Origin: Clostridiales bacterium
GTDB taxonomy: Bacteria; Bacillota; Clostridia; Peptostreptococcales; Anaerovoracaceae
Direction: 5' to 3'
Length of the DNA: 64,000 nt
Assembly (NCBI GenBank): GCA_022766365.1
Contig: JALENW010000033.1
Span: 52,666-116,665 of the forward strand
Shown here in pieces: positions 49,291 through 59,526 of this stretch. The translations under genes and the position numbers were made by a program. The notes beneath the pieces were generated by a model. That model saw only the letters and a program-made list of their open reading frames with translations, was not told where the DNA came from and did not search any database. Position 1 is the stretch's first letter. Each line of letters starts with the position of its first letter.

Positions 49291-51907
<2,617 letters not shown>

Positions 51908-51912
51908 GAAAA

Positions 51913-53955
51913 ATGGCTAAAATACAATCAATAGAACCAAATATAGCCGACCTTGTAAATGGTTGGCTCAAAAGTTATGGCTTAGATTATAAATTGGAAC
52001 AAGAAAGCCTAAATGCAGAAATAGATAAGGCACTGGATGAGTATAAATCAAAAAGTGGCGGAACAGGTGGAAATAGACCGGATGCTAAGCTTTTATTACA
52101 AGATAAGGCTCTTAATTATTATCCAGTACTTATAGAGTATAAAGGTTATAAGGACAAACTAATTAAACTTGATGGTGATAATAGAGTTGATAATAGAACA
52201 AGTAAAAATGAGCCTAATTACAAAAATATCAATAGCTATGCCGTAAATGGAGCAGTGCATTATGCTAATGCCATACTTCATTACACAAGCTACACAGATG
52301 TAATAGCTATCGGTGTTACGGGATATAAAAAGACCAATGGAGAAATAGAACATTCCATAGGCGTTTATTATGTATCTAAGGATAATTTAGGTATTGGTCA
52401 GGAAGTAGGAAAATACACAGACCTTTCATTTTTAGGAAAAGAAAACTTTACTGATTTTATCAAAAAGGTAAATGAGCTTTCTCTATCTAGCGAAGAATTG
52501 GAAGCACTTAAAGATAAAAGAGAAAAAGAGATAAATACAAGCCTTGTAAAGCTAAACAATGATATTTATGCAAACGAAAAAGGTCTTAGCGAAAATGACA
52601 GAGTATATCTTGTATCAGCTTCAATTATGGCAACTCTTGGAATACCAGGAGAAGTAAGCCCTTTAGAAAAATCTGACCTTAAATCATCTACAGAGGACGG
52701 CAACACAGACGGAGAAGTTATAGTCAGAAAAATAGAAGCGTTCTTAAAAAAGAAAAATCTACCAAAAACAAAACAAGACCTAATAGTAAGAACACTCAAA
52801 AATACTCTGCTTTCAGATAACATCAACAAACCTGTAAACGGAGAAAGTCAACTAAAAAGAATATTTTCTAAAATAGTAGATGACTTAGGCATTTACTACA
52901 AAATAGGTTTAACCACAGACTTTACAGGCAAGCTATTTAATGAAATGTATTCTTGGTTAGGCTTTACACAAGATAAGCTGAATGATGTAGTTTTAACACC
53001 GTCATATGTGGCGAATTTTCTAGTAAAACTTGCAAGAGTAGATAAGGATAGTTATGTTTGGGACTTTGCAACGGGTAGTGCGGGGCTATTGGTTGCTGCA
53101 ATGAATGAGATGATTATAGATGCTAAATCAAAAATAACATCTCCATCGGAATTAGAACAAAAACAGTTAAAAATAAAAGCAGAACAGCTTTTAGGCTTAG
53201 AGGTATTATCAAATATTTATATGCTTGCAATCCTTAATATGATACTTATGGGAGATGGCAGTTCAAATATCTTGAACAAAGACTCCCTAACAGATTTTGA
53301 TGGTAAATATGGATTTGGGAAAACAGATGAAAAATTCCCGGCAAGTGCATTTGTGCTTAATCCGCCTTATTCGGCAGAGGGCAATGGAATGATTTTCGTT
53401 GAAAAGGCACTGTCTATGATGAATAAAGGCTATGCGGCTATTATCATTCAAAATTCAGCAGGTAGTGGGAAAGCAAAAGAACTTAATAAGAAAATACTTA
53501 AAAAGAATACCTTGCTTGCAAGTATTAAAATGCCGATAGATTTATTTGTGGGTAAATCAAGTGTACAAACAAATGTATATGTATTTAGAGTAGGAGAAGC
53601 ACATCAAAAAGATGAAGTTGTTAAGTTTATAGACTTTTCAAATGATGGTTATACAAGAACTAACAGGAAAAAGGCAAGTATAAACCTAAGAGATATAGAC
53701 AGAGCCAAAGAAAGGTATCAAGAAGTAGTAGACCTTGTACGCTTTGGCAAAAGCAAGTTAAATATCTTTACAGAAAAAGAATATTATGAGGGGCATATAG
53801 ACCCTAATAATGGAGCGGACTGGAATCAATCGGCACCGATAGATACAAGACCAACATTAGAAGATTTCAAGAAAACTGTGGCTGATTATTTAGCTTGGGA
53901 AGTGTCAAATCTTCTTAAAAATACAGGTAAGGAGAATGAGTCCTCAAAAAAATAA
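51913..53955 (+). CDS. BcgI-like restriction-modification (RM) subunit
   Basis: 680 residues joining a nuclease and a methyltransferase. PDAKLLL (D57) and LIEYKG (E75-x-K77) fit a PD-(D/E)xK nuclease core near the N-terminus. The rest is an HsdM-like N6-adenine methyltransferase: VLTPSYVANFLV, DFATGSAG (about 382-389, SAM) and NPPY (about 482, catalytic). With a separate specificity gene next and no HsdR helicase nearby, this resembles type IIB BcgI, whose A subunit is cleavage plus methylation, rather than type I HsdM. ATG 51913 follows ggaggg. It ends SSKK then TAA directly after a seven-A run. Confidence 0.82.
   Translation: MAKIQSIEPNIADLVNGWLKSYGLDYKLEQESLNAEIDKALDEYKSKSGGTGGNRPDAKLLLQDKALNYYPVLIEYKGYKDKLIKLDGDNRVDNRTSKNEPNYKNINSYAVNGAVHYANAILHYTSYTDVIAIGVTGYKKTNGEIEHSIGVYYVSKDNLGIGQEVGKYTDLSFLGKENFTDFIKKVNELSLSSEELEALKDKREKEINTSLVKLNNDIYANEKGLSENDRVYLVSASIMATLGIPGEVSPLEKSDLKSSTEDGNTDGEVIVRKIEAFLKKKNLPKTKQDLIVRTLKNTLLSDNINKPVNGESQLKRIFSKIVDDLGIYYKIGLTTDFTGKLFNEMYSWLGFTQDKLNDVVLTPSYVANFLVKLARVDKDSYVWDFATGSAGLLVAAMNEMIIDAKSKITSPSELEQKQLKIKAEQLLGLEVLSNIYMLAILNMILMGDGSSNILNKDSLTDFDGKYGFGKTDEKFPASAFVLNPPYSAEGNGMIFVEKALSMMNKGYAAIIIQNSAGSGKAKELNKKILKKNTLLASIKMPIDLFVGKSSVQTNVYVFRVGEAHQKDEVVKFIDFSNDGYTRTNRKKASINLRDIDRAKERYQEVVDLVRFGKSKLNIFTEKEYYEGHIDPNNGADWNQSAPIDTRPTLEDFKKTVADYLAWEVSNLLKNTGKENESSKK
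53929..53955 (+). promoter_or_regulatory. Slippery A-heptamer with upstream SD at the RM/S junction
   Basis: The RM frame ends tcA AAA AAA TAA, a canonical X XXY YYZ heptamer (53946-53952) next to the stop. A -1 shift there enters the open S frame (KKINASLNEKLQN...). An SD-like aaggag (53929-53934) lies 11 bases before the heptamer, the arrangement that stimulates frameshifting in dnaX. The ATG at 53936 leads into a third, short frame. Confidence 0.6.
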
Positions 53956-54014
53956 ATGCCTCACTGAACGAAAAACTCCAAAATGTTCAGTGGGGCGAGT
54001 ATAGAATTGGAGAT

Positions 54015-55082
54015 TTGTTTGAAATTTTAACTACATCAAGTTTTAATACAGATAAATTAGTGGAGGGAGAAGAATATGATTATGTTACTAGAACATCATT
54101 TAATCAGGGTGTTTTGAGAAAAACAGGATATGTAAATCAAGATAATATTAATGAAAAAGGTACTTGGAGTTTGGGTTTGCTACAGATGGACTTTTTTTAC
54201 AGGGAAAATCCATGGTATGCTGGACAATTTGTAAGAAAAATCGTTCCTAAAATAGCAATAGATGGAAACTCAATACTATACTTTACCACTCTATTAAATA
54301 AGCAAAAGCAAAGATTATTGAATGTTTTGGTTAGAGATGTAGATACTACTTTTTCAAATGCGTATATCCAGCTACCAACAAAAAACGGCGAAATAGATTT
54401 TAAATTTATGGACGCTTATATAAGCGAACTCGAAGAGGAGCGGATAAGCGAACTGGCCGCTTACCTAAAGGTAAGCGGCCTGGACAATTATGAATTGTCC
54501 ATCGAGGAGAAAAAAGCACTAGAAACCATGAAATTGATAAAATGGGAAGAAAAAGATGTAACCGGGCAGAATGGAATATTTAATGTGAAAAATACAAAAA
54601 ATATTCTATCCAATGAAATAACACCTAATAGTGGTAATATACCTTATTTGTGTGCTAGTGCTGATAATAATTCTGTATCCAGTTATATAGAACATAAAGA
54701 AGGATTGAAAGACAAAGGTAATTGTATTTTTATTGGTGGCAAAACCTTTGTTATATCTTATCAAGAAAATGATTTTTTCTCTAATGATAGCCATAATTTA
54801 GCTCTATATTTAAAACAGGAAGATGAAGCAGATAAAGTAAATCAATTATTTTTAGCAACTTGTCTTAGAAAAAGCCTAAGTCATAAATATAGTTGGGGAA
54901 ATAGTATTAGTAACAAAAAAATACAAAATGATAAAGTTATGCTTCCGATAAAAGATGGTGTTGTTGATTATAAAGCTATGAGTACTATAATTTCCGCCGT
55001 AAAAAAATTAGTTATAAAAGATGTAGTGCTTTATGCAGATAATAAAATAAATGCTACAAAAAAAGTGATAAGTAAAAATTGA
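54015..55082 (+). CDS. Specificity (S) subunit of the BcgI-like system, start lost or frameshift-dependent
   Basis: A two-TRD recognition subunit: TRD1 (1-145), a conserved spacer (SELEEERISELAAYLKVSGL, about 136-155), then TRD2 (about 175-355). The open frame extends upstream to 53940 and encodes INASLNEKLQNVQWGEYRIGDLFEIL, the usual S-subunit N-terminus. That part has no ATG, GTG or TTG in frame; the first is TTG 54015, inside the conserved segment with no ribosome site. So either a -1 shift makes an RM-S fusion, or one A has been gained in the tract (six A would join ATG 53936 to this frame). Sequencing error is also possible. Confidence 0.78.
   Translation: MFEILTTSSFNTDKLVEGEEYDYVTRTSFNQGVLRKTGYVNQDNINEKGTWSLGLLQMDFFYRENPWYAGQFVRKIVPKIAIDGNSILYFTTLLNKQKQRLLNVLVRDVDTTFSNAYIQLPTKNGEIDFKFMDAYISELEEERISELAAYLKVSGLDNYELSIEEKKALETMKLIKWEEKDVTGQNGIFNVKNTKNILSNEITPNSGNIPYLCASADNNSVSSYIEHKEGLKDKGNCIFIGGKTFVISYQENDFFSNDSHNLALYLKQEDEADKVNQLFLATCLRKSLSHKYSWGNSISNKKIQNDKVMLPIKDGVVDYKAMSTIISAVKKLVIKDVVLYADNKINATKKVISKN
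54455..54501 (+). repeat. Two perfect tandem hairpins inside the S gene spacer
   Basis: ggccgcttacc-taaa-ggtaagcggcc (54455-54480) and, with no gap, tggacaatt-atg-aattgtcca (54481-54501) are perfect inverted repeats of 11 and 9 pairs. They encode the spacer between the two recognition domains and are much richer in G+C than the surrounding DNA. Confidence 0.8.
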
Positions 55083-55216: not shown

Positions 55217-55801
55217 ATGAACGCTTTAGAAAAATACTTTTTAGAAAATAATATTATTACAAATAAACAGGCGGAAGAGATAGGCATCAAAAGGCATATC
55301 TTAGCTTCACTTGTTCAAAAAGGCGAGCTGGAGCGGGTTAAAAATGGCGTCTATAAGAAAAAAGATGCCATAGATGATGATTTTGCCGCTATATCACTTA
55401 ATAATGAACAAGTGGTCTTTTCATTTCATACAGCTTTATATCTTCTTGGATTTAGTGATAGAACACCTAATGTTTTTCATATCAGTGTGCCACAAGGGTA
55501 TAATGCAGGGCATATCAAGCGGAAATTTCCAAATATAAAGGTGCATTATGTAAAAAGAGATTTTTTTCATTTAGGAGTCATTAAGATAAAAACACCCCTT
55601 GGCTCACCTGTAAAATGCTATAACATGGAAAGATGTATCTGTGATATTGTTTCCGAAAGGAAAACCATTGACAAGCAGATATTTACCGATGCCATAACCG
55701 GATACTTTAACAGCAAAGATAAGAACATCAGAAATCTTATTAAATACAGCAGAATTCTCGGCATTGAAGATGAAATCAGAAAATACACGGAGGTACTATA
55801 A
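55217..55801 (+). CDS. abiEi: AbiEi-family antitoxin (type IV toxin-antitoxin)
   Basis: 194 residues. The N-terminal winged helix (NIITNKQAEEIGIKRHILASLVQKGELERVKNGVYKK) is the AbiEi DNA-binding domain; the C-terminal domain (VVFSFHTALYLLGFSDRTP, CDIVSER) is typical of AbiEi antitoxins, which repress the operon and counter AbiEii without direct binding. ATG with gaaggtgat. The toxin gene follows directly (TAA then ATG). Confidence 0.9.
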   Translation: MNALEKYFLENNIITNKQAEEIGIKRHILASLVQKGELERVKNGVYKKKDAIDDDFAAISLNNEQVVFSFHTALYLLGFSDRTPNVFHISVPQGYNAGHIKRKFPNIKVHYVKRDFFHLGVIKIKTPLGSPVKCYNMERCICDIVSERKTIDKQIFTDAITGYFNSKDKNIRNLIKYSRILGIEDEIRKYTEVL

Positions 55802-56641
55802 ATGATAGGTTCGGAAAGTTTGAAAGGTAAAATAAGAAACATTGCGAATTCTAAAAATCTCAGATCGCAGGAAGTTCTGCAAATTTTTTTCTTTGAAAGA
55901 TTCTTGGAAAGACTGTCAAAATCTGAGTATAAATTTAATTTTGTCATCAAAGGCGGACTGCTTATCTCTTCTATGATAGGGATTGATAATCGTACCACGA
56001 TGGATATGGATACCACTATAAAAGGCGTGCCATTGAAAGAAGAAACTATACGAAATATTGTTTCGGAAATCATAAATATAGAGGTGGATGACGGTATAGA
56101 ATTTGAAATAACGGACATAAGCCATATACGAGAAGAAGATGAATACGAGAACTTCAGAGTCCATTTAATAGCTAACTTTGGCAAGATTAAAAACGATATG
56201 AAGATTGACATTACAACAGGGGATGCCATAACGCCAAAGGAAATTGAATACCTATATCCTTGTATGTTTCAGGATGAAAGCCTTAGGGTTTTGGCATATC
56301 CGCTTGAGACGATATTGGCTGAAAAATATGAGAGTGTTATTAAAAGAAATATAACAACAACAAGGATGAGAGATTTTTATGATTTATATAATTTGTACAA
56401 CCTGAGAAAAGAGGATATTAACTTTGACATTCTAAAACAAGCGATTATTTCAACCGCAAACAGAAGAGAAAGTTTGGCTATTATGAAACAGGCAGTAGAG
56501 ATTATTGAGGACATAAAAGAGGACGATTACCTTAAAGAATTATGGGAGGTATATTTAGCAGAAAATCTTTATGTAGGCGATTTGGATTTTTCAGAAACTG
56601 TAAAAGTAGTTGAGCTTATTGCAGAAAAGATTGCTTTATAG
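55802..56641 (+). CDS. abiEii: AbiEii-family nucleotidyltransferase toxin
   Basis: 279 residues of the DNA polymerase beta-like nucleotidyltransferase toxin class. FVIKGGLLISSM and RTTMDMDTT give the GG(x)n-RxTxDxD active site, IDITTGD the third acidic residue, and LAEKYESVIKRN plus RMRDFYDLY the AbiEii/MenT Lys and late motif. Members of this class add nucleotides to tRNA, giving growth arrest and phage abortive infection. Start is one base after the antitoxin stop. Confidence 0.92.
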   Translation: MIGSESLKGKIRNIANSKNLRSQEVLQIFFFERFLERLSKSEYKFNFVIKGGLLISSMIGIDNRTTMDMDTTIKGVPLKEETIRNIVSEIINIEVDDGIEFEITDISHIREEDEYENFRVHLIANFGKIKNDMKIDITTGDAITPKEIEYLYPCMFQDESLRVLAYPLETILAEKYESVIKRNITTTRMRDFYDLYNLYNLRKEDINFDILKQAIISTANRRESLAIMKQAVEIIEDIKEDDYLKELWEVYLAENLYVGDLDFSETVKVVELIAEKIAL

Positions 56642-57368: not shown

Positions 57369-58497
57369 ATGTCAAAAGAAAAAATTAAAGCATATATTTA
57401 CACAAGGGTATCTACAGCCATGCAGGTGGACGGATATTCTTTAGAAGCACAAAAGACAAAGATAAAAGCTTTTGCTTTATATAACGAATATGAAATTGCA
57501 GGTGAATATGAAGATGCGGGGAAGTCCGGAAAATCTATTGAGGGCAGATTTGCATTCAATCAGATGATGGAAGATATAAAAAGCGGAAAGGACAGTATTT
57601 CTTATGTGTTAGTTTTTAAGCTTTCACGCTTTGCAAGAAATGCAGCCGATGTACTTTCTACACTTCAAGTTATGCAGGATTTCGGTGTCAACCTTATCTG
57701 TGTAGAAGATGGCATTGACTCGTCAAAAGATGCGGGGAAACTTATGATTTCCGTTCTTTCCGCTGTTGCTGAAATTGAAAGAGAAAACATTCGTGTTCAA
57801 ACAATGGAAGGACGCATTCAAAAAGCAAAAGATGGAAAATGGAACGGAGGTTTTGCTCCATATGGATATAAACTGGAAAATGGAAATTTGATTATAAATG
57901 AGGAAGAAGCGGAAGCCATCAGAATAATTTTTGACCGCTATTTTAATACTACTATGGGTGCTAACGGAATTTCCAAATATCTTGAAAGGCAGGGAATAAA
58001 AAAGATTGCAAGGCATAACGGCAAGAACCCTTATTTTGATCCGTCATACATCAGAAGAATAATAGCTAATCCTGTTTATAATGGAAAAATTGCTTATGGC
58101 AGAAGAAGAACGGAAAAGGTTCATGGTACAAGAAATGATTATCACTTAGTTAATCAGGATGAATACATTTTGGTAAACGGAAAGCAAGATGCAATCATTA
58201 CGGACTCCCTTTGGGAAGCTGCTCAAAACAAACTAAAATCTCAAGCCAAGAAATATGAGCATTCTTACAAGGGGAATGAAGAATATACGCATTTACTGTC
58301 CGGCATTTTAAGATGTCCGATATGTGATGGATCTCTTTATGGAAATCGCTATCGCAAAAAGAAAAAAAGATGGCTCAAGATATAAAGAGAGCTTATATTA
58401 TAACTGTAAACATAGGCGTCATGTAGACGGCAAGCCATGTAATTTCACAAGGCAGATAAATGAAAAAGTATTGGATGAAGCGTGTAATGTGATATGA
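57369..58497 (+). pseudogene. Large serine recombinase, frameshifted and truncated
   Basis: Begins intact: YIYTRVSTAMQVDGYSLEAQ carries the catalytic Ser, FKLSRFARN and ENIRVQTMEGRIQKA complete the resolvase domain, and a Recombinase domain follows (NGGFAPYGYKLENG, ANPVYNGKIAYGR). A zinc-ribbon start (LRCPICDGSLYGN) is reached, then a seven-A run (58362-58368) shifts the frame to a stop at 58385. In the other frame the protein continues (KDGSRYKESLYYNCKHRR...CNFTRQINEKV) to 58497, where an IS cuts it off. The coiled-coil C-terminus is missing. Almost certainly inactive. Confidence 0.88.
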
Positions 58498-59521
58498 CAT
58501 ATGTTACAGAAATAAAGAAAAAAGAGAGGAACTTTGATACAATAGGTTTTACCACAAACTTTCAAGTATCAAAGGAGACCTCTCATGGAGATTATAACTG
58601 AAGAAATGCGTTTTCGCCAGCGTTTATGTGAATATGCAATAAAATATGGTGTAACACGTGCTGCAAGAAGATATCATACAAATAGACAGTTTGTATATCG
58701 TCAGCTAAAAAAATACGATGGAACCGTCAGGAGTCTTGCCCTTAAATCAAGAAGACCACATAGCAGCCCTAATGCTCATACAAAAGAAGAACTAGCATTA
58801 ATACGACGGATGCTAAAGCGTAACGGAGTGTATGGTTTGGCAGAAGTTTACGTTAGATGCAGAGAAAAAGGATATAAAAGAAGTTTTGCAAGTATGTGCA
58901 GACAAATACGTAAAAAAGGGTATAGGAAGCCAACAATCCATCGAAAGAGTTATACTAAATATGAGAAAATGGATGGAAAATATCCAGGCGATAAAGTCCA
59001 AATTGATATAAAGTATGTTCCAGATGAATGTATTCGCTTTCCAAGTTATGGGAATAGATACTATCAAATAACGGGAATAGATGAATACAGCAGGAAACGA
59101 GTACTAAAAATAGTAAAAGAAAAGAGTACATATGAGACCAGCAAATATCTAAAGGAGCTTGAGGGAAAAATGGGATTTCCAATTCGAATGATCCAGGTAG
59201 ACAATGGCTATGAATTTGTAAATGATGATAATCGAACAGACAAAGAAAGTGCATTTGAAAAGGCAGCAAGAGCATTAAACATTGAGTTAAAAAGGACTAG
59301 ACCTTACTCACCATGGCAGAATGGTAAAGTAGAAAGAAGTCATAGGGAAGATGGAAAGATTCTTTATGGGAGGAAAGCCTTCACAAGTGAACGAGAATTG
59401 ATCAGACAAGTAGCAAAGCATGAAGCTAGATATAATAAAACAGCGAAGACTAGTCTTAATTTCAAAAATCCAAACCAAGTTGTATCAGAATACTTCTCAA
59501 AGTGTAACATATGTCTTGACA
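58490..59521 (+). mobile_element. IS481-like insertion sequence
   Basis: About 1.03 kb with imperfect 19-base terminal inverted repeats (left 58490-58508, right 59503-59521) sharing the core gacatatgttaca; 16 of 19 positions match. One transposase gene nearly fills it, its stop codon lying just outside the right repeat. No direct target repeat is visible beside the ends, suggesting a deletion next to the element. Confidence 0.75.
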
Positions 59522-59526
59522 ACTAA
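58585..59526 (+). CDS. DDE transposase, IS481-like
   Basis: 313 residues in one frame. The N-terminal helix-turn-helix (EYAIKYGVTRAARRYHTNRQ) is followed by an rve integrase core with the DDE triad in VQIDIKYVP, IQVDNGYEF and WQNGKVERSHRED. The single-frame layout points to IS481 rather than two-frame IS3. ATG with ggagacc upstream. Frame intact, so the element may still be mobile. Confidence 0.88.
   Translation: MEIITEEMRFRQRLCEYAIKYGVTRAARRYHTNRQFVYRQLKKYDGTVRSLALKSRRPHSSPNAHTKEELALIRRMLKRNGVYGLAEVYVRCREKGYKRSFASMCRQIRKKGYRKPTIHRKSYTKYEKMDGKYPGDKVQIDIKYVPDECIRFPSYGNRYYQITGIDEYSRKRVLKIVKEKSTYETSKYLKELEGKMGFPIRMIQVDNGYEFVNDDNRTDKESAFEKAARALNIELKRTRPYSPWQNGKVERSHREDGKILYGRKAFTSERELIRQVAKHEARYNKTAKTSLNFKNPNQVVSEYFSKCNICLDN

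Follow-up and report, generated by a model that had tools for sequence, protein, structure and literature searches.

Organization of the RM-S junction

The window, a stretch of 64,000 nucleotides from a Clostridiales bacterium (contig JALENW010000033.1), contains a restriction-modification gene (RM) followed by a specificity reading frame (S) that lies in the -1 frame (Table 1). RM matches N6_Mtase (Pfam, E 7.2e-23) and was classified by PADLOC as a Type IIG REase-MTase (E 3.5e-248), with S as a Type II specificity subunit (E 2e-68). The initial annotation had recognized an S subunit in the -1 frame, and its two Methylase_S stretches (Pfam, E 1.1e-31) agree with this identity. In an alignment of 57 RM proteins, P56, E75 and K77 are invariant and D57 nearly so, a set that we take to be a PD-(D/E)xK-like nuclease pattern, while the NPPY at 483-486 is presumably the N6-adenine methyltransferase motif. 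Searching the PDB by sequence with RM gave no match; by fold, the predicted model of RM (mean pLDDT 85) matched type I M subunits and the RM protein of BsaXI (8w2p_A, E 2.1e-14). Judging from their motifs, the two frames have the domain make-up of a BcgI-like Type IIB system, with nuclease-like and N6-MTase motifs in RM and two TRDs in S. The earlier label ‘BcgI-like’ thus stands for the domains, but not for the way in which S begins, as S has no usual start of its own, unlike the S genes of distant relatives.

Table 1. Coordinates of the genes and signals at the RM-S junction, in window positions.
Feature	Position	Strand	Description
RM gene	51913..53955	+	680 aa; ATG at 51913, TAA at 53953-53955; end TCA AAA AAA TAA
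SD-like AAGGAG, candidate stimulator	53929..53934	+	Ends 11 nt 5' of the heptamer
S (specificity) frame, -1, with two Methylase_S stretches	53940..55082	+	Would be read from 53952 after a slip
Slippery heptamer A AAA AAA, in RM phase	53946..53952	+	Direct reading and comparison of loci
RM stop TAA, abutting the heptamer	53953..53955	+	Direct reading and comparison of loci
Hairpin, predicted frameshift stimulator	53958..53996	+	Folding, covariation and recoding
Predicted -1 frameshift product RM-S	51913..55082	+	1056 aa; inferred

Direct reading of the letters bears out the junction as first described: RM closes at an in-phase run of seven A followed by its stop, AAGGAG precedes the run by 11 bases, and the -1 frame is open from 53940 with no ATG, GTG or TTG upstream of 54015. 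At this position lies a TTG, +69 from the start of the heptamer, which is the earliest of the three codons in the S frame. The outcomes predicted for other tract lengths also agree with the letters, since a tract of eight A would join RM to S and one of six would bring the ATG at 53936 into the S frame. The window does not hold one continuous RM-S frame of the single-chain type, as the TAA and the change to the -1 frame intervene; the junction peptide of the predicted fusion is SSKKINASLNEK. The initial annotation had overlooked the hairpin.

Regarding the surroundings, an AbiEi/AbiEii type IV toxin-antitoxin pair (55217-56641) lies immediately 3' of S, forming a small defence cluster, and a serine recombinase followed by an rve-type integrase ORF (57369-59526) adjoins the defence genes. 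The recombinase and integrase suggest a mobile island, located 3' of a uracil-methyltransferase-like gene (50414-51907).

A slippery heptamer is conserved at the end of RM

For comparison with the window we used the loci recovered by RM searches (the best 80 of 299 genome loci, plus five viral loci). One of these 85, L088, was excluded for its partial match (51%), and the remaining 84, together with the plasmid and phage records L118, L119 and L122 and the window itself, made up a set of 88 loci. An in-phase X_XXY_YYZ heptamer was found at the end of RM in 86 of them, the exceptions being L045, which reads GGAAAAG, and L048, whose contig ends. The heptamer is thus not at the junction by chance. 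The heptamer is GGGAAAR in 81 loci, AAAAAAA in four (the window, L004, L005 and L044) and AAAAAAG in one (L086). The RM stop directly abuts it in 80/86 loci; in the other six (L052, L054, L057, L066, L067 and L086) the stop lies 3-24 nt beyond, and the heptamer is still kept.

In the 81 GGGAAAR loci, the codon that precedes the slip codons occurs in eight forms, which encode seven amino acids, but its last base is always G; the glycine codon within the heptamer is likewise always GGA. Across these RM genes, by comparison, 15% of the third positions are G and 32% of the glycine codons are GGA. On the RM tree (83 rows), the minimum number of changes is 25 for the preceding codon, 12 for the heptamer type and 26 for the next triplet. 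Judged by the organism in each record title, the loci span ten NCBI phyla, with 12 of the 86, including the window, lacking a phylum. In L041 and L055 the S frame breaks 15 and 7 codons past the junction, and these loci are likely decayed or mis-assembled.

The last base of the heptamer tracks the phylum, and may follow the lysine tRNA genes: it is A in 33/34 Bacillota loci, and GGGAAAG was found in 10/12 Pseudomonadota, 12/17 Bacteroidota and 4/4 Campylobacterota. We also looked upstream for an SD-like stretch pairing with the anti-SD, which was present in 29/34 Bacillota, 9/17 Bacteroidota and 8/12 Pseudomonadota loci; the evidence for an SD-like stimulator is weaker because one of five control windows also scored high in Bacillota (21/34). 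In Bacillota this stretch ends about 7-10 nt 5' of the heptamer (74 rows, grouped by record title). Of the two elements whose conservation in homologous loci the initial annotation had proposed to check, the heptamer is kept across the family, and the SD-like stretch is commonest in Bacillota, with the reservation set by the control window.

A predicted hairpin follows the heptamer

RNA folding of the window predicted a hairpin 5 nt past the heptamer, with a 12-bp stem (arms 53958-53969 and 53985-53996) and a 15-nt loop (-20.4 kcal/mol, z -5.55). A stem of 8-16 bp is present in 86/86 loci and starts 4-6 nt past the heptamer in 78, counts that lean high since the search picks the best of many offsets, with covariation and recoding serving as controls. 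In the covariation alignment (83 rows, omitting L053, L055 and L086), 93.8% of the cells are paired, against 36-48% when the arms are slid, and 57 cells carry double changes, against 8.3 after shuffling. Column 41, a leucine wobble base, pairs with column 63 as UA (30 rows), CG (27), UG (19), GC (3), AG (3) or GG (1); C never stands opposite A, and the RM tree requires no fewer than 20 changes in each column. For the strongest pair, correction for the tree left seven well-supported independent contrasts, of which about 4.5 agree and none oppose (p 0.06), and 18 contrasts on all branches.

Recoding S synonymously with each locus's own codons (84 of the 86 loci, 51-nt stretch) weakened the fold from a mean of -19.0 to -6.6 kcal/mol, and in 79/84 loci at most two of 200 recodings folded as well as the natural sequence. 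In L053 and L086 the fold is no better, or just weakly better, than that of the recodings; L053 is the clear exception, but its stem, with a 33-nt loop, exceeds the 51-nt stretch. Five well-filled fourfold sites lie inside the stem, three of them at 0.1-0.4 bits and two at 1.3-1.4, and the three outside with at least 15 rows are at 1.8-1.9. The closest relatives of the window, L004 and L005, have a mismatch inside the stem, with 9 bp before it.

A further comparison is given by L159, the one in-frame RM-S relative examined as DNA, whose RM is 65% identical and which keeps the same amino-acid theme at the joint. The corresponding position carries no heptamer, and two stretches of L159 hardly fold at all (-5.3 and -1.9 kcal/mol). 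The hairpin as a mere by-product of a conserved protein is ruled out by the recoding together with L159, in which the protein theme is kept and the fold is not. About ten nucleotides beyond the corresponding position, at the point where the arm of the family's hairpin ends, L159 carries an in-frame run of nine A (KKK; L159:5020-5046). Slippery runs thus occur without the signal too, and L159 serves better as a control for the hairpin and the stop than for such runs. The length of this run could be unstable.

No Rfam family matched between 51000 and 57500, up to an E-value of 1. We also searched 296 genomes of the same family, 46 of which have an RM-like protein match of some kind, with an RNA model of the junction (R1); under strict filters only the window and G259 were found, in both cases beside RM. 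Weaker matches (L131 at 0.06, and the minus strand of the window and other places at 0.3-0.7) look like chance. R1 matched L159 (E 1e-4, model positions 25-88), which shows that it responds to S coding sequence as well, and it reported no match in L086, L156 and L166, whose stem differs. These last three, together with the E. coli loci L167 and L168 (L166 also being from E. coli), carry a second version of the junction, in which A AAA AAG is followed in the same layout by an unrelated stem (AAACTCCCG/CGGGAGTTT). In E. coli and in phage-like contigs there may be another frameshift cassette, which looks unrelated to the first.

Initiation of S and the stability of the tract

The S frame is closed by a stop no more than 20 nt 5' of the heptamer in 56 of the 86 loci, and 32 of those 56 have no ATG, GTG or TTG before +45; the other loci have a TTG, GTG or ATG upstream or within +45. 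One could argue that ribosomes terminate at the RM stop and restart in the S frame, at an AUG overlapping a UGA or at a non-standard codon, giving a separate S protein. Indeed, 8 of the 83 aligned loci have TGA as the RM stop and, overlapping it, a suitably placed ATG in the S frame, so that S could be re-initiated by ordinary coupling in those eight. The distant relatives L090, L092, L120, L121 and L126 (RM 28-45% identical) also have an ATG in the S frame overlapping the RM stop, L121 and L120 being annotated as ordinary overlapping genes, and hsdM and hsdS of EcoKI are reported to be translationally coupled (PMC3510504). However, the S-frame codon at this place is mostly GUA in the GGGAAAG class (33/83) and mostly AUA in the GGGAAAA and AAAAAAA classes, neither of which is a usual start, and the eight TGA loci still keep the heptamer and a stem of 13-14 bp. 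Such a hairpin is absent from the junctions of the five distant relatives. Moreover, by the usual spacing between an SD and its start codon, the SD-like stretch of the Bacillota loci lies far from a start at the slip site. We consider re-initiation an unlikely source of S in this family, and -1 frameshifting the better account of the junction.

The initial annotation had left three options, namely programmed frameshifting, transcriptional slippage and phase variation, of which the comparison of loci strongly favours the first. Under phase variation, replication slippage on the A tract would toggle the S frame. The seven-A tracts of the window, L004, L005 and L044 would suit such a switch, and the junction of another genome in the family carries six A instead of seven (L089:1499-1504, minus strand), which puts S beyond the reach of a -1 slip. 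The six A are either a real change or an assembly error, and length changes in the poly-A version may therefore occur. Among the 120 listed closest database proteins of 8000 scored, which are 678-687 aa long and end in KK (68), GK (50) or PH (2), none has a tail or fusion length of the six-A or eight-A type.

In E. coli (5426 genomes), 28 genomes match the L119 junction region, 20 of them over at least 80% of the region at 99.9-100% identity and eight on the RM side only. Five of the 20 were examined and have identical junction letters; three of the eight were examined and are identical to each other, carrying the second version. The eight copies are thus constant within each version, and this stands against phase variation, as do the lack of a conserved long tract (81/86 loci being GGGAAAR) and the covarying hairpin, for which we know of no role in replication slippage. 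As a mechanism for the family, phase variation seems very improbable.

Transcriptional slippage would yield a heterogeneous set of mRNAs, in some of which RM and S are joined. Seven A are a possible slip tract for RNA polymerase, and in the poly-A members this process could add to ribosomal slippage. However, the homopolymer is missing from most members, and the phase of the heptamer and the spacing of the hairpin fit ribosomal frameshift signals. Since G GGA AAR is the usual slip site, neither homopolymer phase variation nor slippage of the transcript is likely as a general mechanism, and we give the latter very little chance. That the junction is a sequencing error or a decaying gene pair, as one might think from the 39-contig assembly of the window genome and the many metagenome assemblies among the compared loci, is extremely unlikely, because the same junction in 86/88 loci, in ten named phyla and in complete E. 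coli genomes rules out error as the family mechanism, and both frames are open in the window.

Proposed -1 frameshifting at the RM-S junction

According to these results, the RM-S junction is very probably a conserved -1 frameshift signal, made of an in-phase heptamer abutting the stop, a predicted hairpin 5 nt further on and an SD-like stretch upstream, and likely yields RM-S beside RM. At the level of sequence, two elements of such a signal are present, the conserved in-phase heptamer and a short-spaced, covarying predicted structure downstream. The sequences and their comparison show an in-phase heptamer, the stop that follows it, a predicted hairpin that covaries and an S frame lacking a usual start; we infer that ribosomes slip here with some frequency and that S is produced solely or chiefly as a fusion.

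In the window, a fraction of the ribosomes would re-pair the two lysine tRNAs one base back and go on to make a fusion of about 1056 residues, while those that do not slip would make RM alone. One RM-S and one free RM could then assemble as an (RM)2S enzyme, in which case the supply of S would be governed by how often ribosomes shift frame. RM and RM-S would come from one mRNA in a fixed ratio, giving a composition of 2 RM : 1 S.

Regarding the heptamers themselves, the most efficient ones in E. coli in the presence of a stimulator are reported to be C_CCA_AAG (54%), G_GGA_AAG and A_AAA_AAG, and G_GGA_AAA had earlier been judged inefficient in E. coli, yet is listed among the more efficient ones of insertion elements (PMC4066793). 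G_GGA_AAA is the commonest heptamer among the compared loci, which counts against frameshifting given its reported inefficiency.

Proteins in which RM and S are naturally joined in frame are also relevant here. When long proteins were searched with the S part, 182 matched; among the 120 matches listed, six have at least 1000 aa and 107 have 830-925 aa. One of the six, P0121, aligns along its entire length with the predicted fusion of the window, at 63% identity. Such natural in-frame proteins indicate that a one-chain RM-S is viable in this family. In the model of P0121 (mean pLDDT 78), residues 672-676, at the joint, fall below a pLDDT of 50, and the joint may be flexible. The 39 shorter fusions whose alignments were examined extend through RM and end after roughly one recognition domain. 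Proteins of this apparent make-up (P0122-P0240, one named from Coprococcus) might act as dimers.

Finally, we consider it probable that a horizontally spread RM family reaching across ten phyla makes S only as a fusion by -1 frameshifting, with the ribosome setting 2 RM : 1 S, and that it would be the first restriction system built by recoding. Searches of an open-access library, and of passages in PMC3711429, PMC4066793, PMC5009743, PMC3874165 and PMC4081073, showed among the matches listed no RM system expressed by frameshifting, and novelty is meant within that text.

If this is true, a defence enzyme joins the bacterial genes that need frameshifting. Frameshifting would also explain why annotation starts S too late or calls its first part broken: at five E. 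coli loci, S is begun 68 nt past the RM stop or its first part is labelled ‘missing N-terminus and C-terminus’. Active systems of this kind have probably been overlooked as a result.

Comparison with known systems

The junction shares with the -1 signals of dnaX and the IS3 family the heptamer, a nearby 0-frame stop, a predicted downstream structure, in the window an upstream SD-like stretch, and two predicted products with a common N-terminus (PMC4066793, PMC5600365). It differs from them in belonging to a restriction-modification gene, in having G GGA AAR in most members, and in a frameshift product that would be the longer one, a fusion carrying a whole specificity subunit.

Among restriction enzymes, the Type IIB systems BcgI and BsaXI, of (RM)2S architecture, have the same nuclease-like and N6-MTase RM and an S with two TRD stretches, a likeness that rests on domains and fold and not on the BcgI or BsaXI gene sequences. 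Both are composed of 2 RM : 1 S (PMC4027205; PMC11997821), and BcgI-like enzymes are described as requiring S for cutting and methylation alike (PMC3874165). In contrast, S lacks a usual start here and would be made as RM-S. The single-chain Type IIB enzymes AloI and TstI carry RM and S on one chain, as the in-frame relatives P0121 and P0128 do, whereas free RM would also be made from the junction described here. In single-chain Type IIB enzymes, one catalytic part serves two recognition domains, which has been called unexplained (PMC3874165, PMC4081073); a free RM joining the fusion would be a simple answer to the puzzle of one catalytic part per recognition domain in a one-chain RM-S design. 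The arrangement that we propose, a fusion working with the free subunit, has an engineered counterpart in EcoKI, in which an M-S fusion plus free M gives an active enzyme; that fusion is man-made, and natural EcoKI relies on coupled translation and not on frameshifting (PMC3510504).
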